Source: Deltaproteobacteria bacterium (GTDB taxonomy: Bacteria; Myxococcota_A; Polyangia; HGW-17; SLPX01). From it: DNA of 35,847 bases. The DNA is taken from positions 1-35,847 of the forward strand of contig JAGGXR010000036.1 of assembly GCA_021162935.1 (NCBI GenBank), read 5' to 3'. The notes beneath the pieces are model-generated. The model was not told the DNA's origin and did not search any database. It was given only the letters and a program-made list of their open reading frames with translations. Positions 5,062-34,859 of this stretch are shown here, one piece after another (the stretch's first letter is position 1; each line of letters begins with the position of its first letter). A program made the position numbers and the translations under genes.

Positions 5062-7599
5062 ATGGTGATGCGATCAAACGGAACATTGAACACATCGTGG
5101 AACGGGTTACGTGGGGCGCTGCTGCTGCATGTGTTTCTGCTGGTGTCGGTTGGCCTGTTCGCCGGCTGCCCAACCAAGGGCGGCGGTGGGACGACACAGG
5201 ATGCGGCGGTCCGAGACGCGGACGTGACGCTGGCGCTCTATTCGGTGCGCCCCGCTTCTGGTCCGTTGGCCGGCGGAACTTCGGTGGAACTGAGTGGGGT
5301 TGGATTTGTTGATGGGATGACCGTTCGGTTCGGAGCGGTGGCGGCCACGGGCGTGACCGTTGCGGACAATGGCCATGCGAGCTGTACGACGCCTCCTGGG
5401 GCGGCCGCGGGCTCAGTGACCGTGGCCGTGGAACTTGGCAACGGAGCGTCGGCCCAGCTCGTGGGCGGCTTCGAATACAAAGACGAGCCCAAGGTGGACA
5501 TTTCGTGGTGCAATCTCCAGTATCCTCCATCGACCACGACCCAGGCTCAGGTGGCCAGTGAGTTGATCATGGGTCGGGTCTATGCCCAAGGCGTCACGGA
5601 CCAGCCGGGCCAGGGGCGGGGCATCACGAGCCAACTCGGATATGGGCCGGCAGGATCGGACCCCACCACCGACGCATCCTGGGTCTGGACCGACGCGGTG
5701 TACAACGTGGATGCTGACGAAGTGAACGACGAGTACATGGCGAATCTGACCGTTGCCCAAGCGGGGCAGTACGACTACGCCTATCGGGTGAACGGCGGCG
5801 GGGATTGGACGTATTGCGACCTGAACGGTTCGGACGACGGATACTCGACGGATCAGGCCGGGAAATTGACGGTCCAGGATCAGAGCGAGCCCATGGTGGG
5901 CTGGTGCATTCTCCAGTGGCCGGCAACGCTCGACGGCCAGATTGGCGCGGACACGGATCTGGTCTTCGGTCGAGTTTTTGCCGAGGGGGTGACCGAGGGA
6001 CCGGGGCAGGGCGACGGCGTCGAGGCCGAGGCCGGCTATGGACCTGCCGGTACCAATCCGCAGACGGACCAGGGCTGGATCTGGGTGCAGGCGGACTACA
6101 ACCAAGACGGGCCCACCGGCAACAACGACGAATACAAAACGCATTTTACTCCACAGGCAGAGGGTGCGTTCGATTATGGATATCGATTCCGACGCAACGG
6201 CGGCCCCTGGACCTACTGCGACCTGGATGGTTCTGACGACGGGTACAGCTCTTCGTTCGCAGGGAACATGACGGTGACGGGAGACGCCACGGGCCTCGTG
6301 GATTGGTGCAAACTCCAATGGCCCGCCTCGACCCAGACCACGGTTTCCAGCCCGACGGAGCTGATCTACGGACGCGTGTTCGCTCAAGGAATCACTGCTG
6401 GAGCAGGCCAGGGTGCTGGTGTGGCCGCTCAGGTCGGCTATGGACCTTCGAACACCGACCCTTCGACTGATGCGAATTGGCAGTGGTTCGATGCCGGGTA
6501 CAATACGAGCGTGGATGGTTTGACCCAGGGCGATCTGGCAAATGACGAATACATGGCCAGTCTGACCGTGGCTCAGGCAGGGACCTATTCGTATGCGTAT
6601 CGCTTTTCCAAGGACGGTGGAAATAGCTGGCTCTATTGCGATCAGGACGGTTCCGACAACGGTTTTGCCACGGACCAGGCGGGCGCCCTGGAGGTGACCA
6701 CGGACGCGACGCCTCAAATTGCGTCCATCGTGCAGCCGCGGGGCACGGTGCTCGGCGGCAGCGTGGTCACGATCAACGGCACCGGATTCGCGGCCCAACC
6801 GCAGGTCTTCTTCGACGGCCAGGCAGCCCAGATCCAATCTTCGACAGCCCAAAGCATCGTCTGCACCACCCCGAGTCACGCTGCAGGTTCCGTGGACGTC
6901 AAGGTGAGCAATGGTGGCGGCCGAGACAACACCCTCACGGACGGATTCGAATACATTTTGAATGCGAGCATTACGGTGGATGGGAGCCTGACGGATTGGG
7001 ACAGCCTGCTTCAGCAGGCCACGAACGACCAGACCACCGACGCGACTCCTGGAGCGCTGCACGTCCTGTACGTGGCGTTCGATGACGATCGTCTGTACGT
7101 GGGCGTCGAGGGAACCATGGGGGCCACCGAGTCCGTCGTGCTGTACCTGGACGTCGATGACGGCCAGTCCACGGGTGTTTCGGATATATCCACGCTCTCG
7201 GACAACTCTGGCTCCCTCGACGATGCCATCAGCGGCACGTTGACCGTATCCGCGACGGGATTCGGAGCCGAATTCGCTGCCGGCAGCATTGGGGGGGCAC
7301 AGGTGGATGAGGCCTTGGACGACGCTGCCGGGTGGCGCGGCCTCGCCAACCTGACGGATCTCGCCTGGCTGACCGGGACCGTGAAGGTGGGACAGGACGC
7401 CCTGGAATTTTCCGTGGCCAAGTCGGTGCTGTGGCCCACGGGGGTGCCAGCGGCGGGAGCCAGGGTGGCAATTGTCGTCAAGCTTCTCAAGGATGCCTAT
7501 GGCGTCGCCTATTCGAATCAGACTCTCCCGCAGGACTCAGGCGGGGCAACAGTTTCCTCGGTCGTCTCGTTTACGGTCTATCCCGCCGGGCAATACTGA
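5062..7599 (+). CDS. Large lipoprotein: IPT/TIG, three WC-type modules, IPT/TIG, DOMON/CBM9-like C-terminus
   Basis: 845 residues from the ATG at 5062, with GGAGG (5051-5055) 6 bases upstream; the frame is open back to 4903 but that part looks non-coding. The lipobox is LFAGC (Cys36), followed by a Gly-rich and QDAAVRDAD linker. An IPT/TIG domain (about 57-140) has the GPLAGGTSVELSGVGF turn. Three tandem modules of about 130 residues follow (about 145-275, 280-410, 412-545), each with WC-x-LQ-x-P, GRV-x-A-x-G-x-T, GYGP, NDEY, YR plus W-x-YCD, and GSDdG. A second IPT/TIG (about 548-632) has GGSVVTINGTGF. The last 200 residues, starting ITVDGSLTDW, resemble DOMON/CBM9-like sugar or redox-binding domains. 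Likely a surface adhesin or binding protein; ligand unknown. Confidence 0.85.
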   Translation: MVMRSNGTLNTSWNGLRGALLLHVFLLVSVGLFAGCPTKGGGGTTQDAAVRDADVTLALYSVRPASGPLAGGTSVELSGVGFVDGMTVRFGAVAATGVTVADNGHASCTTPPGAAAGSVTVAVELGNGASAQLVGGFEYKDEPKVDISWCNLQYPPSTTTQAQVASELIMGRVYAQGVTDQPGQGRGITSQLGYGPAGSDPTTDASWVWTDAVYNVDADEVNDEYMANLTVAQAGQYDYAYRVNGGGDWTYCDLNGSDDGYSTDQAGKLTVQDQSEPMVGWCILQWPATLDGQIGADTDLVFGRVFAEGVTEGPGQGDGVEAEAGYGPAGTNPQTDQGWIWVQADYNQDGPTGNNDEYKTHFTPQAEGAFDYGYRFRRNGGPWTYCDLDGSDDGYSSSFAGNMTVTGDATGLVDWCKLQWPASTQTTVSSPTELIYGRVFAQGITAGAGQGAGVAAQVGYGPSNTDPSTDANWQWFDAGYNTSVDGLTQGDLANDEYMASLTVAQAGTYSYAYRFSKDGGNSWLYCDQDGSDNGFATDQAGALEVTTDATPQIASIVQPRGTVLGGSVVTINGTGFAAQPQVFFDGQAAQIQSSTAQSIVCTTPSHAAGSVDVKVSNGGGRDNTLTDGFEYILNASITVDGSLTDWDSLLQQATNDQTTDATPGALHVLYVAFDDDRLYVGVEGTMGATESVVLYLDVDDGQSTGVSDISTLSDNSGSLDDAISGTLTVSATGFGAEFAAGSIGGAQVDEALDDAAGWRGLANLTDLAWLTGTVKVGQDALEFSVAKSVLWPTGVPAAGARVAIVVKLLKDAYGVAYSNQTLPQDSGGATVSSVVSFTVYPAGQY

Positions 7600-7971: not shown

Positions 7972-10900
7972 TCAAAATAGAAATTCGTGGGCGATGAGGT
8001 CGACGAGCGGCTGCACGGGACCCTTGGGCGAAGCGGACAAGAGCGCGGCTCCTGCCAAAATCTTCGTGATGGGACGGTTCGAGCGCCGAGCCTTTTCGAG
8101 GGCCGCCCGGGCGTTTTTGCGTCGCTTTGCGTTTCCACCATTCATCTGGAACCACAAGGCGAGGGTCGCGGCAAGTCGTCTGTGTCGGTCCGCCAGGCTG
8201 CGATCCATGATGTGGGCCAGTTTCGTAGCCGACCACTTGGCCGCCCAGGCTCGGGCCACGCCCACCGTGACACGCCGTCGTACCTCGGTGGAGGAATCAT
8301 GGAGCAGCCGGGAAAGGGTCGTTCGGTATCGTTCCGGGTTCTGTGCGGCCGCTTCGGCAGCGGCCATGCGCAGGTTGAATCTCGGGTCCGCCGCCGCCCT
8401 GGACAGGGTGCGACCGACGACTTCGTGGTTGGTTTTGCAGCGGGCAAGAGCGGACAAGGCAAGCCGGCCTCGTTTGGTCAGCAGGTCGATGCGTCGTTTC
8501 AGCTTCTTGGCCAAGCCGGGATCATCCCAGGCTGGGCCACGAAGGAGGCAGGAAATGGCAACCGCTTCGAGTTTCCGATTGTCCATCAGAGTCGAGATGG
8601 CGTTCGTGATTGTCGCGCCTCCTGCCCGACAAAGGACATGCAGCGATTGAGTTGCGATTCGTTGGTCGTCCAACTTTGCGGCGGTCATCAGGACGGATGG
8701 CAAGGCCAAAGAACGGGCGGTGTGGATGACTGCCATTCGAGTCGTCTCATCGGACACGTTTGCGAGTACCTTGGAGAGCACTTGGTTCATCTTCGCGCCG
8801 GAGCCGGTCGAAGGCGGCTGGATCACGGCGAGGAGGGCCGTGGCCCTGGCCACGAATCCGGGTGAACGTGTCGTGGAAAGGACGGCCATGAGACTCGGGA
8901 ACAGGTTGGGGCCGGCGGCCTTCTGCCACATGGGCGAAACGAACGCGGACAAGGCGGCTTCGGCCACCCGAGGGTCCTTGTCGGCTACCAACTTCAATAA
9001 GGTGGTGACCGTCTGCGGCCGCAACGTCTTGTCGAACAATGGGGCGGCCTGCAGGGCGGCAAGACGAACCTGGGAATTCGAATCCCCGGCAAGACGGGTC
9101 CAAACCCGCATGGCAACGTCTGACCGGACCTTGGCGAGCATAGGGAGCGCCACTGCCGTTTTGGCTCGTTCCTGGGGGCTGGGATTTCGCGCGGCCGTCA
9201 GTACGAAATTTTGAGCCACGTCCCATTGGCGTGTATCCTTGACCAAGAGGGCGGCTGCCCGGGCAAGGTCGCCCCGCATCCCACCCGGTCCGGACTTGGC
9301 GACTCCGAACAGGAATTTGGCGATCTTGTATGGATCCACGTCGTTTCGTCGGGCACGGGCAAAGGCCGCCATCGCCTGGGCGCGAACAGTCACGGATCGA
9401 TCGGATGTGGCCCGAAGCAGCGTGGCTCCAGATGGTTTGGGCTGTCTACCAAGCCACCGGACCGCTTCGGCTCGCACCTCGGCTTCCGGGTCTTTGAGCA
9501 AAGCATTGAGCAGGTTTGCATCAGTGGACACGCTTCCTGCCAACTCGGCCAGGACGGCGGCAGCCTTGCGGCGAATGGTTGCGTCCTTCGAGGTCGCCAG
9601 TTCTGTCATTTTGGACGCGAGCGCCGCGCCCAAACCGAAGTGCAGCGCGGTTTTTGCTGCAGCTCGGGCCTCTGAGAGACCAACTCGGCCGATGGCCGTG
9701 ACAATGGGCTGCACGGTGACGCCCTTGGGTTTGTCGCCGAGACGTTTCAGAATACGCAAAAATGCTGCAGATGCATCGACCGGCGCCCCCGACGCCACGA
9801 GGGCCGAGATGACAGGGGGGGCAGCCTTTTGGCCATAGCGACTCAGGAGAGCTTCGCATACAGTGCTTGTCCAGATGTCGTGGACGGCCAGCGCTCGAGC
9901 GACAATGGGCAAGGGCAGCTTTTTTGCCTTGCCTGCAAGCACGTCGGGCAGGAGCCGGGCCGCTGTTTTGCGCGAGAGGACTCTCGCCAGGTCAGCGTTG
10001 CTCACAAATACAGAGGCGGGCAGGGTGGACATGTCCTGCTGAAGGGCGTCCGCCCAATGTGCTTTCCGCTCCAAGAGGTGGGCCGCCTTGGATGGATTTC
10101 GCATCGCGATCCAGAACGCTGCCCGCAAGGCCCGCAGCTCCAATCGATGTGATTTGAGCGCCCTATTTACTATGGCCACTTCATCAGGTTCTCCGGTGCC
10201 GACCAGCCTTACGAATTCAATGGCTCGTGCCAGCCCTTTTCCTTCGGATAGAGCGGTCAGCGCCTTCCACCCCCGCTTCGTTTTTCCGGCGAGAATCAGG
10301 AGTTCGCCCCGTCTGCTGGGATTCGTCATTTGGACGAGCTGGGAGAACCAGGATGGCACGCCGCTGTGGCTCCCTCCTCGCAGACCTCGGGCTTTATGGG
10401 CCAGGGTCTTCGACCAACGAGCCGTCAGACCAGTAGCCGGAATGCCTGTATCTTCGATGAGACTGCCTGGTGCCGGACGAATGGGCAGAAGGGCAAGATG
10501 AGAAGCAACGCTTTTTGCTCGACGGATCACGACGGTCTGTTGCGCCGGACCGGGCCCCGCCAACGCCCATTGCCTAGCGGAGCTTGCAGCGATTTGGACC
10601 CACACGAACAACCCGATGACCACGAGGAGGAGTGCTCCAGCAGCCGATCCCCACAGAACCTTGCTTTTGCGCAGCAATGCCCGTTCAGCCTCGGTGGTCG
10701 GACGGTAGGACCGTGCCTGCCACAGATGATGGAGCAGAAGCGGTCGTTCCGACGCCACTCGGCCTTTGACCAGGATGGCAGCCTGGATGCGGCGGGCTCG
10801 AATGGGGCCGTCCACACAACGAATGGTTGGGACCAATGAGCGACCGGACAAACGGCAGTCGTCGCCCTTTCTGTCGGCCAAGCCAACTTGGATGAACGAC

Positions 10901-11886
10901 GAGACGATCGCCTCGGTGTCCTGCTTGCTCGATCCCGCTTCACGGGCGATCCGTTCCAGGGAAACCCATCCGGTGCCTGCTTCGCGACGGTCTGCGAGAT
11001 AGGACAAGACATCGACGCCGCTTTTTCCTGCTTGCAATGCGAGTTTTTCAACATAGGCAGGAATGAGATGGTTCGACGCCCCTGCGGCTAGATAGTCATT
11101 ACTGGCAAGCTTTCTGGCCGCGACAGCGCCAGCCACGGCCAGTTGCATGGTGAGCGGCAGGATATCCGATTCAACGGAAAGGTCCTGAGCCATCATTTCG
11201 GGCAGGCCGGCTTCGAAATGTTGATTCGAGGCAAGTGCCGATTGTTCGAGCAGAGCCGAACAGGACGATGTATCGAATCGCTTCAGCACGAACACCATGC
11301 CCGGAGGGATCGACAGGCCGAGAAAGGCAGCAAGTTCCATGACAACCGGCAGCGTGTCGCTGCTTACGGTCACGAAAAGCGGCGGCGCCGATGCTTGGAT
11401 CGACGCTCGGGTCATTTTCTGGAGGAGCGCACGATCTCGGGCATCTGAGTGTATCACCACGTCTTCGACGTGGTCCAGAAGCACCAGGACCTGTCGGCCC
11501 AGCGCTCTGGGTAACTTGGACAGGCGCGCCAAAACATCAGATTTGGAGTCGGGGGCTTTCGTTTCGAGTTCGGCGAGTCCCGCAGCCAGACTTTCCTGGA
11601 GGCCGAGGGCGCAGTCCACATACAAAGGAAACGCGGCAGGCTTGCCTCGTTCCACCAGGCCTCGCACCAGGCCGGCTCGAAGCAGCGAGGTTTTTCCAAC
11701 GCCCGACTCTCCGGTCAGAATTCCAAAGCGAAAGTTGGCCTTCGAGACCCGGTCGAGCAGTTTGGATACCTCCCGCTCTCTGCCCATGAAAATCGAGGCA
11801 TCCGCCTCGGTGAAGGGCAGAGCACCGCGAAAGGGGCCTCGTAAGGTGTTGTGGCTTTCATTCGACAATGTGTTGCTCCCCGGCAT
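7972..11886 (-). CDS. Membrane-anchored STAND-type NTPase with HEAT-like repeat tail
   Basis: 1304 residues. MGRERE (34-39) is the usual entry to STAND/AAA modules. Walker A is GESGVGKT (59-66) and Walker B VLVLLDHVED (133-142, Asp138). A winged-helix-like stretch lies at about 290-356. A single strong transmembrane helix is at about 411-433, then about 870 residues of mostly Ala/Leu-rich helical repeats. From about 690 on many are HEAT-like, with repeated 'DPEAEVRAEAVRWLG' and 'DSNSQVRLAALQAAP' patterns. STAND NTPases are signalling switches that sense a ligand with their repeats; no N-terminal effector domain is present, only about 33 residues before the NTPase. The membrane helix puts the repeats on the opposite side from the NTPase, presumably periplasmic. 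Role unknown: envelope sensing or defence are the main options. Confidence 0.88.
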   Translation of the reverse strand: MPGSNTLSNESHNTLRGPFRGALPFTEADASIFMGREREVSKLLDRVSKANFRFGILTGESGVGKTSLLRAGLVRGLVERGKPAAFPLYVDCALGLQESLAAGLAELETKAPDSKSDVLARLSKLPRALGRQVLVLLDHVEDVVIHSDARDRALLQKMTRASIQASAPPLFVTVSSDTLPVVMELAAFLGLSIPPGMVFVLKRFDTSSCSALLEQSALASNQHFEAGLPEMMAQDLSVESDILPLTMQLAVAGAVAARKLASNDYLAAGASNHLIPAYVEKLALQAGKSGVDVLSYLADRREAGTGWVSLERIAREAGSSKQDTEAIVSSFIQVGLADRKGDDCRLSGRSLVPTIRCVDGPIRARRIQAAILVKGRVASERPLLLHHLWQARSYRPTTEAERALLRKSKVLWGSAAGALLLVVIGLFVWVQIAASSARQWALAGPGPAQQTVVIRRAKSVASHLALLPIRPAPGSLIEDTGIPATGLTARWSKTLAHKARGLRGGSHSGVPSWFSQLVQMTNPSRRGELLILAGKTKRGWKALTALSEGKGLARAIEFVRLVGTGEPDEVAIVNRALKSHRLELRALRAAFWIAMRNPSKAAHLLERKAHWADALQQDMSTLPASVFVSNADLARVLSRKTAARLLPDVLAGKAKKLPLPIVARALAVHDIWTSTVCEALLSRYGQKAAPPVISALVASGAPVDASAAFLRILKRLGDKPKGVTVQPIVTAIGRVGLSEARAAAKTALHFGLGAALASKMTELATSKDATIRRKAAAVLAELAGSVSTDANLLNALLKDPEAEVRAEAVRWLGRQPKPSGATLLRATSDRSVTVRAQAMAAFARARRNDVDPYKIAKFLFGVAKSGPGGMRGDLARAAALLVKDTRQWDVAQNFVLTAARNPSPQERAKTAVALPMLAKVRSDVAMRVWTRLAGDSNSQVRLAALQAAPLFDKTLRPQTVTTLLKLVADKDPRVAEAALSAFVSPMWQKAAGPNLFPSLMAVLSTTRSPGFVARATALLAVIQPPSTGSGAKMNQVLSKVLANVSDETTRMAVIHTARSLALPSVLMTAAKLDDQRIATQSLHVLCRAGGATITNAISTLMDNRKLEAVAISCLLRGPAWDDPGLAKKLKRRIDLLTKRGRLALSALARCKTNHEVVGRTLSRAAADPRFNLRMAAAEAAAQNPERYRTTLSRLLHDSSTEVRRRVTVGVARAWAAKWSATKLAHIMDRSLADRHRRLAATLALWFQMNGGNAKRRKNARAALEKARRSNRPITKILAGAALLSASPKGPVQPLVDLIAHEFLF

Positions 11887-25618: not shown

Positions 25619-27985
25619 GTGGGTCGGTGCGATTGGCGGGACTCGGGGACTGGAGAATTTGCTGTGACTCAGGTGGAACTGGACGGCACAGAGCCGCGTT
25701 CAGAGGTTCTCAAGGCGGCGGTGAGCGTCTTGGCAGAGAACCTGTACAAGGTGTTCGATAGCGATTCGGTGTTACAAGGGGCCCTCGATGTCATGTTGGA
25801 CTATTCTGCCGGGTCGGTGGTGGCGCTGTACCGCCTCGACGATCAGACGCGGAGTTTTCATCCGGTCTACGTCGCGGGTTTGCCGGCGAGCATGAAAAAA
25901 TTGGGAGGCTCGGTGCCGTACGACCGAAGCCTGCAGGGGGCCTGCGTGGAACAGCGTGCCCCCATATTCTCCGAAGACTTCATGCATGATGAACGGGGCG
26001 ATGCAACCCTGCGAAAGGCGTTGGGAGATTTTGGGATTCGTTCGGCACTTTGCGTGCCGCTCCTGCACGCGGATCGTTGTGTCGGGAGCCTGTCGTTGGG
26101 TTTCAAGGATGTTCCGAGGATTCCCGATGGAGACATGGCGACCCTCGAAGCGATTTGTCGGTTCATTGCGTTGGCCATGGTGAGCAACGAACGGGCAAAA
26201 AAACTCGATGTGGAAGTGCACCGTCGCAAGGCGGCTGAGCAGGCTCTTCGACGCAGCGAAATCAAGTTTCGGACCATATTCGAATCCGCTGCGGATGCCA
26301 TCTTCACCATGAAGGAAAGCCTCTTCGTGGATGCAAACCCACGTTCGGCCGACATGTTCGGCACCACGGTGGAGCAGTTGGTTGGGTCGAGGCCGTACCA
26401 GTTTTCCCCGGAGCGTCAGCCCGATGGGCGGCTCTCTCGTGACAAGGCGCTCGAAAAGATTCGGGCGGCGTTTACGATCCCCCAGCGATTCGAGTGGACC
26501 CACAGTCGCCTCGACGGCAGCCCCTTCGACACGGAAGTGAGCCTGAATCGTGTGGACCTGGACGAAGGTCCCCTCCTGTTGGCCGTGGTGCGCGATATCA
26601 GCGCGAGGAACCGGTCTCGGAAGGCCTTGCGTCTTGCCAACCACCGACTCCGTATCCTGTCCGAGATCCTGAAAGCAATCCTGGATGCACGCTCGCCAAG
26701 GCACGTTGCCGAAGCGGCTCTCAATCGACTGGGAGAACTACTGCCCATCTCCCGTGCGTCCGTCATGGTGACCGAAGACGACTCGTCCGACTTGGTGACC
26801 CTTGCGGCGGTGGGAATAACAGGTCCCGGGCTGGGAGTTGGGGCGCGAGTTCGGATCCCGGACGAAATCCTGGAGACCTTTCGGAAGGGTGAGCACCGAT
26901 TCGTGGAGAACACGGCGGATCTCGGGGAGGGAATGGTCAAGATCGGACAGGATCTCGATGCGGCTGGCATTGCAAGAGGATTGGGGATTCCCCTGGTCGC
27001 AGACGGTCATCTCATTGGGGGGTTGACCTTTGGATTCACGGCCGAGGATTCCTTCACGAATGAGCACGTGGAAATAGGGCGTGAGGTGGCGGCCCAGCTC
27101 GCGGTCGGGTTGCATGAGTCGAGACTTCGACAAGAAGTGGAACAGCACGCTGAGGCGCTCGAAAATCGCGTTCGGGATCGAACCGCCGAGTTGCGTGTTC
27201 GGGTCGAACAGGTCGAACGTTTGAATCGAGACATGGAAACCCTGCTCGACGACCTCCTGTCAGCGAACCGGAGGCTTGAAAAGACGACCCGTCGACTCCA
27301 CAAGGCAAATGAAGAACTCGAAACATTCGCCTATTCGGTGTCCCACGATCTGCGTGCGCCTCTGCGTGGGATGCATGGGTTTGCCGAAGCACTGATACAG
27401 GATTACGAAGCCTTGCTCCCGGAACGAGGGAAAAATTATCTAGGGCGCATCGTCCAGGCCAGCCGAAGAATGGACGACATGATAAGCGCCCTGCTTACGT
27501 ACAGCCAAGTGAGCAAGGTCTCGAGCGACCTTCGCACGGTCTCTCTCGAATCAGTGGTCTCCGAGGCCCTGCGGAGTCTCGATGCCATGGTCTGCGATCG
27601 GGATGCGAAAATCACGATACGCCGACCGCTTCATTCGGTGTTCGGCCAGCCGGCGCTCATCGTCCAGATCGTGGAGAACCTGCTCAGCAACGCCATGAAG
27701 TTCGTGCCCGATGACCGGTCGCCGGATGTGATGGTGTGGTCTGAACGGGACGGACATTTCGTGCGACTGTGGGTGGAAGACAACGGTATTGGAATCGCCG
27801 AGCCGGACAGCCAGCGGATTTTCGAGGTGTTCGAACGACTCCACACCGAAGAAGAGTATCCGGGTACGGGAATCGGACTGGCTATCGTGAAGAAGGGCGT
27901 TGAACGTTTGGGCGGCCAGGTCGAGGTCTATTCGCAGCCGGGCAAGGGGGCTCGTTTTCTGGTATCCCTGCCATCGGTGGAGTAA
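25619..27985 (+). CDS. Soluble hybrid-sensor histidine kinase: GAF-PAS-GAF-HisKA-HATPase
   Basis: 788 residues from the GTG at 25619 (GAGG 7 bases upstream); a GTG at 25664 with GGAG 8 bases upstream is nearly as good. There is no signal or membrane helix, so it is cytoplasmic. GAF 1 (about 35-195) has RSALCVPLLHADRCVGSLSLGF. PAS (about 215-330) has FRTIFESAADAIFTM. GAF 2 (about 345-500) has ARGLGIPLVADGHLIGGLTFGF. A coiled coil (about 505-565) follows, then HisKA YSVSHDLRAPLRG with His576 and an ATPase domain with NLLSNAMKF, VEDNGIGI and GTGIGLAIVKKG. The kinase core resembles phytochrome-like kinases, but no bilin Cys context is recognised. No receiver; its partner may be the next gene, 95 bases on. 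Confidence 0.92.
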   Translation: MGRCDWRDSGTGEFAVTQVELDGTEPRSEVLKAAVSVLAENLYKVFDSDSVLQGALDVMLDYSAGSVVALYRLDDQTRSFHPVYVAGLPASMKKLGGSVPYDRSLQGACVEQRAPIFSEDFMHDERGDATLRKALGDFGIRSALCVPLLHADRCVGSLSLGFKDVPRIPDGDMATLEAICRFIALAMVSNERAKKLDVEVHRRKAAEQALRRSEIKFRTIFESAADAIFTMKESLFVDANPRSADMFGTTVEQLVGSRPYQFSPERQPDGRLSRDKALEKIRAAFTIPQRFEWTHSRLDGSPFDTEVSLNRVDLDEGPLLLAVVRDISARNRSRKALRLANHRLRILSEILKAILDARSPRHVAEAALNRLGELLPISRASVMVTEDDSSDLVTLAAVGITGPGLGVGARVRIPDEILETFRKGEHRFVENTADLGEGMVKIGQDLDAAGIARGLGIPLVADGHLIGGLTFGFTAEDSFTNEHVEIGREVAAQLAVGLHESRLRQEVEQHAEALENRVRDRTAELRVRVEQVERLNRDMETLLDDLLSANRRLEKTTRRLHKANEELETFAYSVSHDLRAPLRGMHGFAEALIQDYEALLPERGKNYLGRIVQASRRMDDMISALLTYSQVSKVSSDLRTVSLESVVSEALRSLDAMVCDRDAKITIRRPLHSVFGQPALIVQIVENLLSNAMKFVPDDRSPDVMVWSERDGHFVRLWVEDNGIGIAEPDSQRIFEVFERLHTEEEYPGTGIGLAIVKKGVERLGGQVEVYSQPGKGARFLVSLPSVE

Positions 27986-28080
27986 CGCAGATGTGCGGTC
28001 TGCGAGCGTGGAATGTTTTTGGCTTGCGCCGATAATGGTCTGCCGGTCCGGTCCGATATGGTGAAATTGGAGTGATTGTG

Positions 28081-30834
28081 ATGGACGAAGATGGCGCCAT
28101 CCGCGTGTTGGTCATCGATGACGATCAGAACAGTGCAGACCTGACGGTTCGTTCGGTGCGCCGAATCGCGCCTCAGGCCGTCTTGCGTCTCGCCTTGTCC
28201 GAGTCGGAGGTCCAGGAGGCACTGGAAGGCGATGCCCAGGACCTGATTGTGACCGATTGGCATCTGGGCTGGGCTGAAGGCGACACCATCATTGCCAGGT
28301 TCAAGGCCTTGTGGCCCGAGGTTCCAATCATTGTCTACACGGGCACGGGCAGTGAACGCACCGCGGTCACTGCGCTCAAGGTCGGCGCCGACGACTACGT
28401 CATCAAAACTGCGGGAAGCCATGTGCACCTTGCCATGGCGGTCCGTACCGCGTTGGACCTCCAGAAACACAAAAGGCGCGTGCGGCAGGTCGAATTTCAG
28501 TATCGCGACATGTTCGACGAACTGCCCGTCGGGCTGTTCCGCACGACCCCGGAAGGTAAAATCCTGGAGGTGAATTGGGCCGCCGCTGCTTTGTTGGGAT
28601 ACGATGATCCTGCAAAGCTCAAGGACAGCCCCGTGGTTGAGACCTACCGCCACGCATCCGATCGAGAGTCGTTCGTGGAACAGATGATGCGCGACGGCCA
28701 GGTCCTGGATTTTGAGGTCGAACTGCGTCGTGCCTCGGGTGAGTCGTTTTGGGCCAGGGTGGATGTGCGGGCGATTCGAGCCGAGCATGGCTCCATTCGG
28801 TACTTCGAAGGGATCATGATGGACGTCACGGAAGCGGTCCGGGGGCGCATCGCAATCGAAGAAGAACTCCACCGTCAGGCAGCCGTGAACGATCTCCTTT
28901 CCCAAGGCCTGGATGCCGTAGACGTCAGTCGAATCGACCAGGATGCGCTTCGGATTCTGAAACAATGGACCCATGCGGATCGGTTCGAGTTTTTGCGCGT
29001 CGCCTCGGACGGTATGACCGTGCGCATCGGCGACATGCTGGCCCAATCCCGGTTCTTGGAACAGAACCGAGGCGTCATTGGAGACCTCCTCGTGGTTCAG
29101 GACGCAGAACTCTCGAATTCGTCGCCCGTCGTTCGGGGATTGGCTTCGGCCTTAAACGATGAGGGCCTTCGTTTCGGCCTTGCGGGAGAATTCAATCTGC
29201 CTGGGGGTGCGACTGGCCTGTTCCTCGTGGCCGATACCGAACCAGATGGCTGGTCGGACGAGCGTATCCTGCTGGTGCGCAATCTGGTTCAGCGGATCTT
29301 TGTATCGGTGGAGCGGATCCGGCTCCTGGACGAATCGCGTCGCCGTGCGGACATTCTGTTCCGGGGCATCGAGGTCCTGCCCATTGGATTGTTGATCCTC
29401 GACGAGAATCAACGACTGATCATAGCCAACGATGAGGCTCGTAAGCATCTGACGACCATTGCGCCCCAGGGCTGGAATGAAACAGCACCTCTGAAGAGCA
29501 TTGGAAACATTCCTCTGACGCAACTTCCCGTACCCACGTCGTGCGGCTGGCCATCCATCGAGATCGTCGAACAAGGTGACAACAAGCATGTGTTCGAATT
29601 GGCAGCGACCCACCTTGGCCAGGAAGACGACTTGGGCGTGGTGGTGGTCATCAGAGACGTGACCGAGCAGGTCCAGATCGAGCAGCGGGCGGCGACTCAA
29701 GGACGTCTTGCAGCCGTGGGGCAATTGGCTGCCGGCATTGCCCATGACTTCAACAATCTTCTGACGAGCATGATTGGGTACGCGGAACTGCACGTTCGCG
29801 ACGAGCATCTGCCCCGAGACGTTCTCGAAAGTCTGGATGTCATCATCGACCAGGGCCACAAGGCGGCCGGGCTCGTGCGCCAGATCCTGGATTTCGGCCG
29901 CAAGTCCCTCATCTTTCGTAGCACCCAGGACGTGGGGGCGTTGGTTGGAGGCATGGTGGGTGTCCTTCGCAGGACCATCGCCGAGAGCGTCATTCTGGAG
30001 TTGGACCTGCCTCCGCAGCCCTGCTACGCGGACGTGGACGTTTCGAGCGTGGAGCAGATACTGACCAACTTGGTGGTGAATGCCCGGGACGCCATGGAGG
30101 GCAGCGGCCGTTGCACGGTGCGTCTCGAAACGATCATTCTGGAGCAACAGCAAGCCAATGGGCGTGGCGTTCCACGTGGAAAATGGATCCTTTTGAGCGT
30201 CGAAGACATGGGCCCCGGTATTCCAGAAAATCTACGATCCCACGTGTTCGAGCCCTTCTATACGACCAAGGAAGTGGGCAAGGGAACCGGCCTTGGGCTG
30301 TCACAGGTCTACGGACTCGTTCGGCAGCACGGTGGATTCATCGAGGTGGGTGAGAGTCCATCCGGTGGGGCTGCGTTTTTCGTCTACTTTCCTGAAAGCG
30401 ACAAGGCACCTCATCTTTCGGACGAAAATGGAAGACATGCCTATCCCCAGGGAAGGGGAGAGACCATCATGGTGGTCGAAGACGAACCGTCGGTTTTGCT
30501 GGCGGTGAGCCGCATGCTCTCCAATATCGGGTACGAGGTCGTGGCGGCCCCCACGGCGGACGACGCAATGGAATTGGCCATGGATCATCAGATCCTGGAC
30601 CTGGTGGTGAGCGATGTGGTCATGCCCGGGACGAGTGGTCTGGACCTGGTAGAAAATCTGAACCGGCATCGCCCGGGATTGCCGATTATTCTGATGACCG
30701 GATACCCAATACGCATGGATGACGCAGACCTGCGTCGCTTGAAGGGTGTGGCCGCCGTCTTGGAGAAGCCTCTCGACATGCGGGTCCTTGCCTCGACGAT
30801 CGAGAGAACTCTGGGGCAAGGCAAAAAGGGATGA
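28081..30834 (+). CDS. Hybrid histidine kinase: REC-PAS-GAF-PAS-HisKA-HATPase-REC
   Basis: 917 residues. The ATG at 28081 is chosen for GGAG 8 bases upstream; a GTG at 28072 overlaps that site. Receiver 1 (about 7-125) has acidic residues DDD (13-15), phosphoacceptor Asp59 in VTDWHLG, IVYTGTGS and the Lys in YVIKTAGS. PAS follows (about 135-255), then a GAF-like domain (about 270-410), PAS 2 (about 420-540) and HisKA GIAHDFNNLLTSM with His555 (NtrB-like). The ATPase has NLVVNARDAM, VEDMGPGI and GTGLGLSQVYGL. Receiver 2 has Asp845 in VVSDVVMPGTSG, LMTGYP and LEKP. Both receivers look complete. No DNA-binding output is present, so the phosphate must go to another protein. Soluble. It could take phosphate from the upstream kinase. 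Confidence 0.93.
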   Translation: MDEDGAIRVLVIDDDQNSADLTVRSVRRIAPQAVLRLALSESEVQEALEGDAQDLIVTDWHLGWAEGDTIIARFKALWPEVPIIVYTGTGSERTAVTALKVGADDYVIKTAGSHVHLAMAVRTALDLQKHKRRVRQVEFQYRDMFDELPVGLFRTTPEGKILEVNWAAAALLGYDDPAKLKDSPVVETYRHASDRESFVEQMMRDGQVLDFEVELRRASGESFWARVDVRAIRAEHGSIRYFEGIMMDVTEAVRGRIAIEEELHRQAAVNDLLSQGLDAVDVSRIDQDALRILKQWTHADRFEFLRVASDGMTVRIGDMLAQSRFLEQNRGVIGDLLVVQDAELSNSSPVVRGLASALNDEGLRFGLAGEFNLPGGATGLFLVADTEPDGWSDERILLVRNLVQRIFVSVERIRLLDESRRRADILFRGIEVLPIGLLILDENQRLIIANDEARKHLTTIAPQGWNETAPLKSIGNIPLTQLPVPTSCGWPSIEIVEQGDNKHVFELAATHLGQEDDLGVVVVIRDVTEQVQIEQRAATQGRLAAVGQLAAGIAHDFNNLLTSMIGYAELHVRDEHLPRDVLESLDVIIDQGHKAAGLVRQILDFGRKSLIFRSTQDVGALVGGMVGVLRRTIAESVILELDLPPQPCYADVDVSSVEQILTNLVVNARDAMEGSGRCTVRLETIILEQQQANGRGVPRGKWILLSVEDMGPGIPENLRSHVFEPFYTTKEVGKGTGLGLSQVYGLVRQHGGFIEVGESPSGGAAFFVYFPESDKAPHLSDENGRHAYPQGRGETIMVVEDEPSVLLAVSRMLSNIGYEVVAAPTADDAMELAMDHQILDLVVSDVVMPGTSGLDLVENLNRHRPGLPIILMTGYPIRMDDADLRRLKGVAAVLEKPLDMRVLASTIERTLGQGKKG

Positions 30835-30914: not shown

Positions 30915-31394
30915 TCAGTCACAGGTATCCGATTCGCAGGTGGTGGTTTCCGTGCCGCATTTTTCCGTACGGCAATCGTTGCAGGCCGAGCTGTTCGGAT
31001 CGCTCATGCATTCAGTGATGCAATTTGTCACGACGCACTGCTGCAGGGCATCGAAGTCGTCCTTGCTCTTCTGACAGCCATGGCTCTTGCACTCGTTGAT
31101 GCAGCTCATGTCCGTCCCGCAGTCCCCAGCGCAAGCACCGATTTGAGAGCAGTTCCAGTTGGTGTCCCCGCCGTCCTGCTCGGTCGTGCCATCCTGCTCG
31201 GTCGTGCCGTCCTGCTGGGTCGTGCCGTCCTGCTCGGTCGTGCCGTCCTGCTGGGTCGTGCCATCCTGTTGGACCGCAGCGTCCTGCTGCCCATTATTCT
31301 GGTTGTTTTGATTCCCACCATTGTCGTCGTCCGAGCAGGCGGCCAGGGCGAACATGGCCACGAACGTCATTGCAGCAATCGAAAGCCGTTTCAT
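30915..31394 (-). CDS. Cys-rich lipoprotein with a hexapeptide repeat linker
   Basis: 159 residues from the ATG at 31394, with GGAGG 7 bases upstream. The lipobox is LAAC (Cys20), then an Asn/Gln/Asp-rich stretch and five copies of [QE]QDGTT (42-71) plus a partial sixth. The C-terminal 80 residues hold 15 cysteines, with C-x3-C and C-x2-C spacings (CAGDC, CVVTNCITEC, CNDCRTEKC), which suggests a compact disulfide-bonded domain exposed outside the cell. No family is named with confidence, although such short Cys-rich lipoproteins are common in Myxococcota-type genomes. Convergent with the hybrid kinase gene, divergent from the CoA-transferase pair. Confidence 0.82.
   Translation of the reverse strand: MKRLSIAAMTFVAMFALAACSDDDNGGNQNNQNNGQQDAAVQQDGTTQQDGTTEQDGTTQQDGTTEQDGTTEQDGGDTNWNCSQIGACAGDCGTDMSCINECKSHGCQKSKDDFDALQQCVVTNCITECMSDPNSSACNDCRTEKCGTETTTCESDTCD
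31170..31271 (-). repeat. 18-bp coding tandem repeat ([QE]QDGTT), 5 full units plus a partial
   Basis: Five full 18-bp units (31182-31271) and a partial one encode the hexapeptide linker of the Cys-rich lipoprotein. Units differ mainly at the first codon (CAG against GAG). In-frame unit length means copy number can change without breaking the gene. Confidence 0.85.
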
Positions 31395-31537
31395 TCTCTT
31401 TCCTCCATCAAGAATCGTCCGGCGGGTCCATCCCTTTCCAGACGTGGTTTTCCGTAGCGTTGTCACACCACGGATGCAATTACAAACGCGCTTCTGAAAA
31501 GAAGCATCATATTCACGAGACACTTTCGCGTGTAGCG

Positions 31538-31683: not shown

Positions 31684-33273
31684 ATGGACGGGAAGGGACG
31701 CGTGGCGATCATTTCGGCCCAACAGGCGGCGGAATTGGTCCAGGAGAGCCAGACGTTGGTGACATCGGGCTACATCGGAGCTGGGTTCCCCGAGGACCTT
31801 GTTTGGAACCTGGCACGACGTTTCGAAGAGTCCGGCTATCCGGGGGACTTGACTTTGGTGCACGCGGCGGGGCAGGGGAACTGGCGAGACCGTGGACTCG
31901 GGGTCCTGGCCAGGCCGGGACTGCTCAGAAAGGTGATCGCCGGATACTATGCCACGTCGCCCGAAATCTGTGACCTCGTGGCCGAGGATTTGATCGAGGC
32001 CTACACCTTTCCACAAGGGGTGATCACTCAGCTCTTTCGCAACACGGCGGCCGGCAAGCCAGGGCTGTTCACCCACATTGGACTCGGGACCTTCGTGGAC
32101 CCGAGAATCGAAGGCGGGAAGCTCAATCGAGTCACCACGAACGACCTAGTGGAACTGGCGGAACTCGGTGGCCGGCAGCTTCTGTTCTATCCGGCGTTTC
32201 ATCTCGATGTCGCCTTCATTCGAGGCACGACCGCCGACCTGAATGGCAACGTGTCTATGGAAAAGGAGGCGGCGACCCTCGAACATCTGGCCATCGCCCA
32301 GGCGACGCGCCATTGCGGCGGGGTTGTGGTGGCACAGGTGGAACGGTTGGCGCAGGTGGGTTCCCTGGATCCGCAGCGGGTCAAAATTCCCGGAAACCTG
32401 GTCGATTACGTGGTGGTGGCCGAACCGAATCGTCATTGGCAGACCTTTGACCAACCATTCGATCCGGCCCTGACGGGAGACGTGAAGTCGGTTTTGGATG
32501 GACGGGAGCCAATGGCTCTGACTGCGGACAAAGTGATGGCCCGACGGGCGGCCTTCGAAATGCGCCCTGGAGACGTGGTGAACATGTACCACGGCGAGTC
32601 GGAAGCGCTTGCCCGAGTGGCCCTCGAAGAAGGCCTGCTGGATCGCATCCATCTGACCGTGGCCGCTGGAGCCGCGGGAGGCATGCCGGCCGGAGGCCTT
32701 TCCTACGGCCTGGCATACAACCCGGAGGCCATTCTGGATCAGGCGTCCATGTTCGATTTTTATCATGGAGGCGGTCTCGATCTGGCGGTGATGCCCATGG
32801 TGCAGGTGGACCGACAGGGAAACGTGAATGTGACGCGCTACGGGCGGACCATCAAGGGGTGTGGCAGCTTCGTAGACGTTTCCCAAAGTGCTCGGCGCGT
32901 GGTGTTCGTGGGCAGTCACACCATTGGGTCGCACGTCAACGTGGGATATGGCCGCGTGATCATTCGCAGAGAGGGGCGTCCGCGTCGTTTCGTGGATCGG
33001 GTAGAACAGATGAGCTTCAGTGCAGACGAGGCCCGACGTCGGGGCCAGCAGGTCCTTTACGTGACGGAGCGAGCCCTGTACGAACTGGGCACCAACGGAC
33101 TCGTCCTTCGCGAGGTGGCCCCGGGCGTGGACCTGGAGCGAGATGTGCTCGGGGTGATGGCCTTCCGTCCCGAGGTGCCGGACTCGATTCGTCCCATGGA
33201 CGAGGCTCTGTTTCGTCTCGAAGCCATGGGGTTGATCGATCGCATGCAGATGACGCCAGGAGGTGTGGCATGA
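31684..33273 (+). CDS. Family I CoA-transferase paralog lacking the catalytic glutamate
   Basis: 529 residues from the ATG at 31684 (GAGG 7 bases upstream); an ATG at 31669 is possible. The fold is the fused alpha-beta CoA-transferase of the YdiF/propionate CoA-transferase group: SGYIGAGFPED near the N-terminus, the GLGTFVDPR oxyanion-type loop, FIRGTTADLNGN and RYGRTIKGCGSFVDVSQ. In active members a Glu in an (S/T)VExG motif forms the CoA thioester. Here the motif reads TVAAGAAGG with Ala327, and the nearby GIGMPEG-type loop is altered to NMYHGES. It is therefore probably not a CoA-transferase by itself. It overlaps the intact paralog by four bases and may be its regulatory or structural partner. 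Confidence 0.85.
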   Translation: MDGKGRVAIISAQQAAELVQESQTLVTSGYIGAGFPEDLVWNLARRFEESGYPGDLTLVHAAGQGNWRDRGLGVLARPGLLRKVIAGYYATSPEICDLVAEDLIEAYTFPQGVITQLFRNTAAGKPGLFTHIGLGTFVDPRIEGGKLNRVTTNDLVELAELGGRQLLFYPAFHLDVAFIRGTTADLNGNVSMEKEAATLEHLAIAQATRHCGGVVVAQVERLAQVGSLDPQRVKIPGNLVDYVVVAEPNRHWQTFDQPFDPALTGDVKSVLDGREPMALTADKVMARRAAFEMRPGDVVNMYHGESEALARVALEEGLLDRIHLTVAAGAAGGMPAGGLSYGLAYNPEAILDQASMFDFYHGGGLDLAVMPMVQVDRQGNVNVTRYGRTIKGCGSFVDVSQSARRVVFVGSHTIGSHVNVGYGRVIIRREGRPRRFVDRVEQMSFSADEARRRGQQVLYVTERALYELGTNGLVLREVAPGVDLERDVLGVMAFRPEVPDSIRPMDEALFRLEAMGLIDRMQMTPGGVA

Positions 33274-34859
33274 CGACGCCCAAAGGCCGTATGGACGGAA
33301 AACTGCGCAGACAGGATCGACCCGAGGTGATCACTGCCCGACAGGCGGCTGCACTCGTGCCCGACGGGGCCATCCTGGGCATCAGCGGCTTCGTGGGCGC
33401 CGGAGTGGCCGAGGCTTTGGCCATGGGGCTCGAAGATGAGTTCGTGGAGACCGGCCGACCGTCGGGATTGACCCTCTTGTTCTGTGCCGGCATCGGCGAC
33501 GGCAAGGATCGTGGGCTGAACCGCTTTGCCCACGAAGGCATGGTGTCCCGAATTATCGGAGGCCACGTGGGGTTAACGCCGAAACTCGGCAGGGCCATCC
33601 TGGACAACCAAATCGCCTTCTACAATCTGCCCCAAGGCGTGGTGACCCACCTGCTTCGGGACATGGCGGCAGGTCTGCCGGGCACGCTCCATCACGTGGG
33701 CTTGGGCACCTACGTGGACCCGCGCGAAGAGGGTGGCAAGGCGAACCACCTTTGCAAGGAAGACCTCGTGGAACTCTTGGAATTCCATGGGGAGTCGTAT
33801 CTGTTCTATCGATCCCCTGGGTCCATCGATGTGGCTTTCATCCGTGGCACCACGGCCGACGAGGCGGGCAATATCACCATGGAGGACGAGGCCCTGTTCC
33901 TGGAGCATCTCCAGATGGCCATGGCGGCTCATAACAGTGGCGGCGTGGTCGTGGCTCAGGTCAAGCGCATCGCCCAGGCGGATTCGTTGGATCCCCGGGA
34001 TGTGCGTGTGCCCGGCTTCCTGGTGGATTACGTGGTGGTGGCTCCCCCCGAACTCAACGAGCAGACGTATGGCGAGGATCACAACCCTGCGTACCTCGGG
34101 CAGATCAAGATTCCACTGTCGAGCATCGAGCCACTCGCCATGAGTGAACGAAAGGTGATCGCGCGGCGTGCTCTCCTCGATATCCCCAAAGGGGCGGTGA
34201 CCAATCTCGGAATCGGCATGCCCGAAGGGGTCGCCAAGACAGCCAACGAAGAAGGAGTGCTCGAAGACCTGATCCTCTCGGTCGAAGCAGGTCCCACTGG
34301 AGGGATTCCTGCGTCCGGTTTGAGCTTCGGGGCTGCTTCGAATCCTTGGTGCATCACGGACCAGCCGAGCCAGTTCGACTTCTACGACGGCGGGGGCCTG
34401 GACGTCTCCTGTTTGGGCGCCGCCGAGATCGATGCAGAGGGCAACGTCAACGTCAGTAGGTACGGTCCGAAGCTACCTGGTTGCGGCGGGTTCATCGACA
34501 TCTCCCAGAACGCCAAGCGGCTCCTTTTCCTCGGCACCATGACGGCCGGATCCAAACTTTCGGTCGAAAACGGCGGGCTCGTCATCGAACGGGAAGGTCG
34601 CTTCAAGAAATTCGTCCGCAAGGTGGGCCAAAAGACCTTCAGCGCCGCCTTGGCGGTGAAGCGGAAACAACCGGTTTTTTACATCACCGAGCGCTGTGTT
34701 CTGAAACTCACCGAGGAAGGTCTGGTCCTGGCCGAGATTGCGCCCGGTCTCGATCTCGAGCAAGATATCCTGTCCCAGATGGAGTTTCGGCCGAAGATTG
34801 CCGAGCCGTTGGCCACCATGGACCCACGTTGTTTCAATGAGGCACCCATGGGGCTCTGA
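33270..34859 (+). CDS. Family I CoA-transferase (acyl-CoA:acetate/3-ketoacid type)
   Basis: 529 residues. The ATG overlaps the previous stop (ATGA), with AGGAGG 6 bases upstream, so the pair is translationally coupled. Sequence features match the preceding protein throughout: SGFVGAG, HVGLGTYVDPREEGGKAN, FIRGTTADEAGN, RYGPKLPGCGGFIDISQ. Here the active residues are kept: GIGMPEGVA and SVEAGPTGGIPASG, with catalytic Glu339 expected to form the gamma-glutamyl-CoA intermediate. These enzymes move CoA between short-chain acids such as acetate, propionate, butyrate or 3-oxoacids in fermentation or acid activation. No pathway gene is adjacent, so the acid pair is unknown. No terminator is clear in the 164 bases after it. 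Confidence 0.92.
   Translation: MTTPKGRMDGKLRRQDRPEVITARQAAALVPDGAILGISGFVGAGVAEALAMGLEDEFVETGRPSGLTLLFCAGIGDGKDRGLNRFAHEGMVSRIIGGHVGLTPKLGRAILDNQIAFYNLPQGVVTHLLRDMAAGLPGTLHHVGLGTYVDPREEGGKANHLCKEDLVELLEFHGESYLFYRSPGSIDVAFIRGTTADEAGNITMEDEALFLEHLQMAMAAHNSGGVVVAQVKRIAQADSLDPRDVRVPGFLVDYVVVAPPELNEQTYGEDHNPAYLGQIKIPLSSIEPLAMSERKVIARRALLDIPKGAVTNLGIGMPEGVAKTANEEGVLEDLILSVEAGPTGGIPASGLSFGAASNPWCITDQPSQFDFYDGGGLDVSCLGAAEIDAEGNVNVSRYGPKLPGCGGFIDISQNAKRLLFLGTMTAGSKLSVENGGLVIEREGRFKKFVRKVGQKTFSAALAVKRKQPVFYITERCVLKLTEEGLVLAEIAPGLDLEQDILSQMEFRPKIAEPLATMDPRCFNEAPMGL

Follow-up and report, generated by a model that had tools for sequence, protein, structure and literature searches.

A Glu-less YdiF-type CoA-transferase copy encoded in overlap with a catalytic twin: a candidate two-part enzyme in a Myxococcota lineage

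Class I CoA-transferases and relatives without the glutamate

Class I CoA-transferases are single-type or alpha/beta enzymes. For both proteins described here the best solved relative is Escherichia coli YdiF (2ahu, 2ahv and 2ahw), a class I acyl-CoA transferase that likewise unites its A and B domains in a single chain and that has Glu333 and a Gly-Val-Gly gate. In RipA the corresponding Gly-Val227-Gly loop gates the CoA cleft and adjoins the catalytic glutamate (PMC3180442), while in AarC a mobile loop around Val270 shuts the active site (PMC4876117); by analogy, the latter would be the same gate loop as in RipA and in gene 1 below. In the class I enzyme CtfAB, Gln98 hydrogen-bonds the catalytic glutamate, and replacement of this glutamate by Ala or Ser abolishes activity (PMC12400318).

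Some members of the fold manage without this residue. In IpdAB, the COCHEA-CoA hydrolase of steroid-degrading actinobacteria, a class I fold has Gly57 in place of the glutamate (PMC5380842). The 3-methylglutaconyl-CoA decarboxylase AibA/AibB of Myxococcus xanthus has Cys56 at this site, and its Ala variant is still active (PMC7756340). Gly238 replaces the glutamate in the intramolecular CoA-transferase ThnP, for which a substrate-internal anhydride has been proposed by its authors (PMC11659651), and MdcA operates through a ternary complex without a covalent adduct (PMC5534430). Because such Glu-less members are active, lack of the glutamate should be read as no standard CoA transfer and not as no chemistry.

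Pairing of an active with an inactive subunit is known from another protein family in an acyl-CoA pathway: going by the title of a FEBS J 2021 paper cited in PMC10818641, BbsCD is a heterotetrameric short-chain alcohol dehydrogenase with inactive pseudoenzyme subunits. In principle the gene pair described here resembles it, but as far as that title tells the BbsCD architecture is experimental, whereas ours is deduced from gene sequences. A literature search, largely confined to papers outside subscription, found no class I CoA-transferase pseudoenzyme.

The gene pair and its active sites

The window (the whole stretch of 35,847 nucleotides that was analysed) contains two YdiF-type genes, for which the coordinates, the ATGA overlap and the length of 529 residues per protein agree with an earlier note on this DNA. 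The features of the pair are as follows.

31684..33273, + strand: gene 1, Glu-less YdiF-type class I CoA-transferase paralogue, 529 aa (PF01144, E 1.3e-35; YdiF 2ahu, E 2e-122)
32587..32595, + strand: gene 1 codons 302-304, Tyr-His-Gly at the gate loop (column counts; RipA gate described in PMC3180442)
32662..32664, + strand: gene 1 codon 327, GCC (Ala) at the catalytic glutamate position, equivalent to YdiF Glu333 (alignment)
33258..33273, + strand: AGGAGG ribosome-binding site at 33258-33263, within the 3' end of gene 1, together with the start/stop overlap of the next line (direct sequence reading)
33270-33273, + strand: ATGA start/stop overlap of gene 1 and gene 2 (direct sequence reading)
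33270..34859, + strand: gene 2, catalytic-type YdiF-like CoA-transferase, 529 aa (PF01144, E 1.9e-37; YdiF 2ahu, E 1e-141)
34209..34217, + strand: gene 2 codons 314-316, Gly-Ile-Gly, intact gate loop (alignment)
34284..34286, + strand: gene 2 codon 339, GAA, the catalytic glutamate (alignment)

The AGGAGG motif is spaced six bases from the ATG of gene 2. Scans for promoters and terminators gave no signal over chance, and no further YdiF-type gene was found in the source genome beyond the pair. The two proteins are 48% identical to each other. Both score far over the Pfam cut-off for the PF01144 CoA-transferase domain, and each is matched over its full length by YdiF, with 40% identity for gene 1 and 45% for gene 2.

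In the alignment YdiF Glu333 pairs with Glu339 of gene 2 and with Ala327 of gene 1, where the motif reads TVAAGAAGG compared with TVETGPIGG in YdiF. Codons and alignment thus bear out the assignment of these two residues in the earlier note, and the alignment to YdiF leaves no other glutamate that could fill the catalytic site of gene 1. The loss of the GIGMPEG-type loop from gene 1 is equally clear: gene 2 has TNLGIGMPEGV in this region and gene 1 has VNMYHGESEAL, such that the Gly-x-Gly gate (GIG in gene 2) has become YHG. All 86 other aligned sequences (gene 2 and its counterpart in the second genome, YdiF and 83 further homologues) have both the catalytic glutamate and the Gly-x-Gly gate loop, the first gate glycine being likewise invariant; many of these rows are closely related, and 50 are left at under 90% identity. 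With Ala327 at the glutamate position, gene 1 is not counted here among the working class I transferases. Judging from the mechanism of the class and from the CtfAB mutants, we infer that its product would be without CoA-transfer activity.

Other parts of the site are retained in gene 1, namely the conserved residues of the N-terminal domain, the GGG motif and Gln111 of the PQG motif, which aligns with CtfAB Gln98. The Gln111 column also varies in homologues that keep the glutamate: Ala is found there in 14 Acidobacteriota-type homologues (L087, L089-L093, L096, L097, L100, L101, L103 and L110-L112) and Met in four from Clostridia (L114-L117).

The AlphaFold2 model of gene 1 has a mean pLDDT of 93.5 and a pTM of 0.92. 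It superimposes on the YdiF-CoA thioester structure (2ahv) with a Z-score of 52.8 and an r.m.s.d. of 1.2 Å over 504 residues, and on SCOT with a Z-score of about 36. The fold of gene 1 is thus predicted to be intact and not decayed.

Gene 1 differs from YdiF by its Ala, by Tyr-His-Gly and by a catalytic twin that is either separate or fused. It shares with IpdAB a class I fold without the catalytic glutamate, but IpdAB consists of two short glutaconate-CoA-transferase-type subunits and lacks a full-length twin that carries the glutamate. The match of IpdA is limited to the first half of gene 1, at 22-24% identity. AibA/AibB, which comes from the same phylum, also has the fold without the glutamate, but its alpha and beta chains are halves of a single active site and not two full copies. 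AibA, too, matches gene 1 in the first half only and is distant in sequence (22-23% over the first domain). IpdAB and AibAB are each built from an alpha and a separate beta subunit, unlike gene 1, a YdiF-type protein with a single chain. ThnP, a class I relative in which the glutamate is also replaced, is Cat1-type, and a twin is not described for it. The full-length model for MdcA, a family II ACP transferase, is not matched (TIGR01110, 30 bits against a cut-off of 789), and PF16957 covers only residues 174-250 of gene 1. With 400 and 411 bits against a curated cut-off of 750 for the staphylococcal FadX equivalog NF052271, the pair belongs to the same broad family without being that equivalog.

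A natural fusion, constraint and distribution

The metagenome-assembled genome GMC8, which comes from the same order as the source genome and from a different family, has the same pair in the same gene order on contig JAOZUO010000062. Here the copies are fused head to tail into a single uninterrupted frame of 1041 codons (L038:10038-13163) that opens with ATG and is preceded by AAGGAG. The first copy, at 68% identity to gene 1, has VNMYHG and TVASGAAGG, with Tyr302-His303 of gene 1 identical, while the second is 72% identical to gene 2 and has VEAGPTGG. Ala327 and YHG are not chance or a sequencing oddity, because both recur in a copy that is only 68% identical. The Ala is therefore not confined to one genome with signs of decay, which the earlier note had named as grounds for giving up its reading. 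Its proposal that the Glu-less copy is translated in step with the live one is upheld by the ATGA overlap in the window and by the gene fusion in GMC8. An assembly frameshift is an unlikely source of this fusion, as the halves are both complete and no stop or in-frame ATG is present at their junction. The structure model of the fusion (pTM 0.55) is good in its second half only; the aligner had put all single-length rows on that half.

A tree built from 50 homologues unites the two Glu-less copies with 100/100 support, and likewise the two live copies. Each copy thus groups with its counterpart, and the duplication is older than the split of the two families. By NG86, dN/dS is 0.154 between the Glu-less copies and 0.183 between the live ones, values that are rough since dS is above 1. 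On these estimates the Glu-less copy is constrained as much as the live copy, in line with purifying selection. Together with the GMC8 counterpart and the tree, this supports the claim of the earlier note that the Glu-less copy is conserved. Of 62 columns with a conservation of at least 97% across 84 sequences, six carry replacements common to the two Glu-less copies (G302Y, E327A, F341Y, G371P, G395S and K435R). All six fall within the C-terminal catalytic domain, the N-terminal domain being free of them, and the live copies have no common replacement across the same columns.

The pair is seen in two genomes only, both of them fragmented assemblies, and both copies are absent from 10 of the order's 13 genomes. 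In a third genome, which shares its genus with GMC8, a gene-2-like fragment extends past the end of its contig. Contigs of GTDB r220 were scanned with the patterns DVVNMYH and MFDFY[HQ]G and 80 loci were kept; GMC8 is the only Glu-less one among them, although differently worded variants in distant phyla may escape these patterns. One of these loci (L119) has its reading frame split in two with the glutamate still visible. Strong matches outside the two genomes all keep the glutamate, both in 318 genomes belonging to the class and in 379 that were drawn from the phylum, and viral contigs yielded no relative.

Plasmid-borne relatives keep the glutamate in six of the six that were read. Plasmids NZ_CP086114.1 (L131) and NZ_CP067227.1 (L133) encode YdiF-type CoA-transferases with the catalytic glutamate (TTEPG and TAEPG) and a C-terminal extension; their label 'malonate decarboxylase subunit alpha' is probably a misannotation. 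A Clostridiales metagenome-assembled genome (L109) carries two YdiF-type genes on the same strand, 1.4 kb apart (5986-7548 and 8959-10515), both with the glutamate and the second very divergent.

Role of the Glu-less copy and genomic context

The pair has the composition expected of pseudoenzyme pairs, a conserved paralogue without the catalytic residue being co-encoded with an active copy. That the two copies function as a unit is well supported by the fusion, the coupling and their joint retention. Because gene 1 is kept, constrained, translated in step and fused in a relative, we see it as the partner half of one enzyme. Our preferred reading, which we consider probable on the sequence evidence, is a heteromeric CoA-transferase with one catalytic half and one non-transferase half. 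The interpretation given in the earlier note is upheld in part and gains strength from the natural fusion. The GMC8 fusion points to a putative physical heteromer of the proteins of gene 1 and gene 2.

In such a two-part YdiF-type enzyme, gene 2 would be the working half. Its Glu339 would attack an acyl-CoA to give an acyl-glutamyl anhydride and then a glutamyl-CoA thioester, from which CoA would pass to a second acid. Gene 1 is an old duplicate that has kept its predicted fold and the conserved N-terminal residues while losing the nucleophilic glutamate and the Gly-x-Gly gate. Most likely it would replace one subunit of the dimer and there stabilize the catalytic half, shape substrate choice or sense CoA or acyl-CoA. 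A regulatory or structural role of this kind is something that we infer, as are the substrates of the locus.

The main rival is that gene 1 is itself an active enzyme, acting on an acyl-CoA without the glutamate through hydrolysis, decarboxylation, retro-aldol cleavage or direct intramolecular transfer, so that the pair carries out successive or linked reactions. We consider this rather unlikely, even though IpdAB, AibA/AibB, ThnP and MdcA are active Glu-less members of the fold and gene 1 retains its N-terminal conserved residues, Gln111 and the GGG motif. The new Tyr302-His303, identical in both genomes, could equally signal a new catalytic role. However, none of these four systems is YdiF-type and a same-length catalytic twin is absent from their cited descriptions. 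CtfAB is inactive once its glutamate is changed to Ala or Ser, and the CoA cleft of gene 1 may be constricted by the bulky tyrosine of its gate loop.

That the two products are separate enzymes of one operon, making no physical contact, is improbable. Overlaps of the ATGA type are common in bacterial operons and could reflect ordinary compaction, but compaction would leave the in-frame fusion in GMC8 and the order and co-occurrence preserved across two families to be explained. A pseudogene or sequencing error, suggested by the lost invariant residues, is contradicted by the second genome, with identical replacements at 68% identity, by the open frame with a dN/dS of 0.15 and by the high-confidence predicted fold, and can be given almost no weight.

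Beyond the heteromeric enzyme with one catalytic half, it is conceivable, and put forward tentatively, that a class I CoA-transferase became asymmetric in this Myxococcota lineage, the Glu-less YHG copy having turned into a half devoted to acyl-CoA binding or to a different catalysis, coupled to its live twin and fused to it in one branch. If true, the enzyme would be bifunctional or under allosteric regulation, a type of CoA-transferase for which we found no description. A full-length pseudo-copy that is conserved and either coupled or fused to a live one would demonstrate that asymmetric enzymes can arise within this family. The natural Glu-to-Ala variant, with its accompanying changes, offers a probe of what the remaining active site can do or sense, and the GMC8 fusion is a natural one-to-one construct suited to structure determination and half-by-half mutagenesis.

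The genes neighbouring the pair are not conserved and are signalling or surface genes. Just upstream in the window are two consecutive sensor histidine kinases with GAF/PAS domains (25619-27985 and 28072-30834), the second with receiver domains. The GMC8 contig stops directly after the fusion, and in the third genome the genes beside the gene-2-like fragment differ from those of the source genome; for these reasons no pathway is named by context. A lipoprotein-like ORF with a Cys-rich C-terminus and no Pfam match lies on the opposite strand at 30915-31523 (-) and contains an 18 bp tandem repeat (31170-31268, 5.5 copies) that encodes a QDGTTE-type peptide. Further away, also on the minus strand, 7972-11886 encodes a 1304-residue nSTAND1 NTPase with HEAT repeats, an architecture of signalling or defence-like character.
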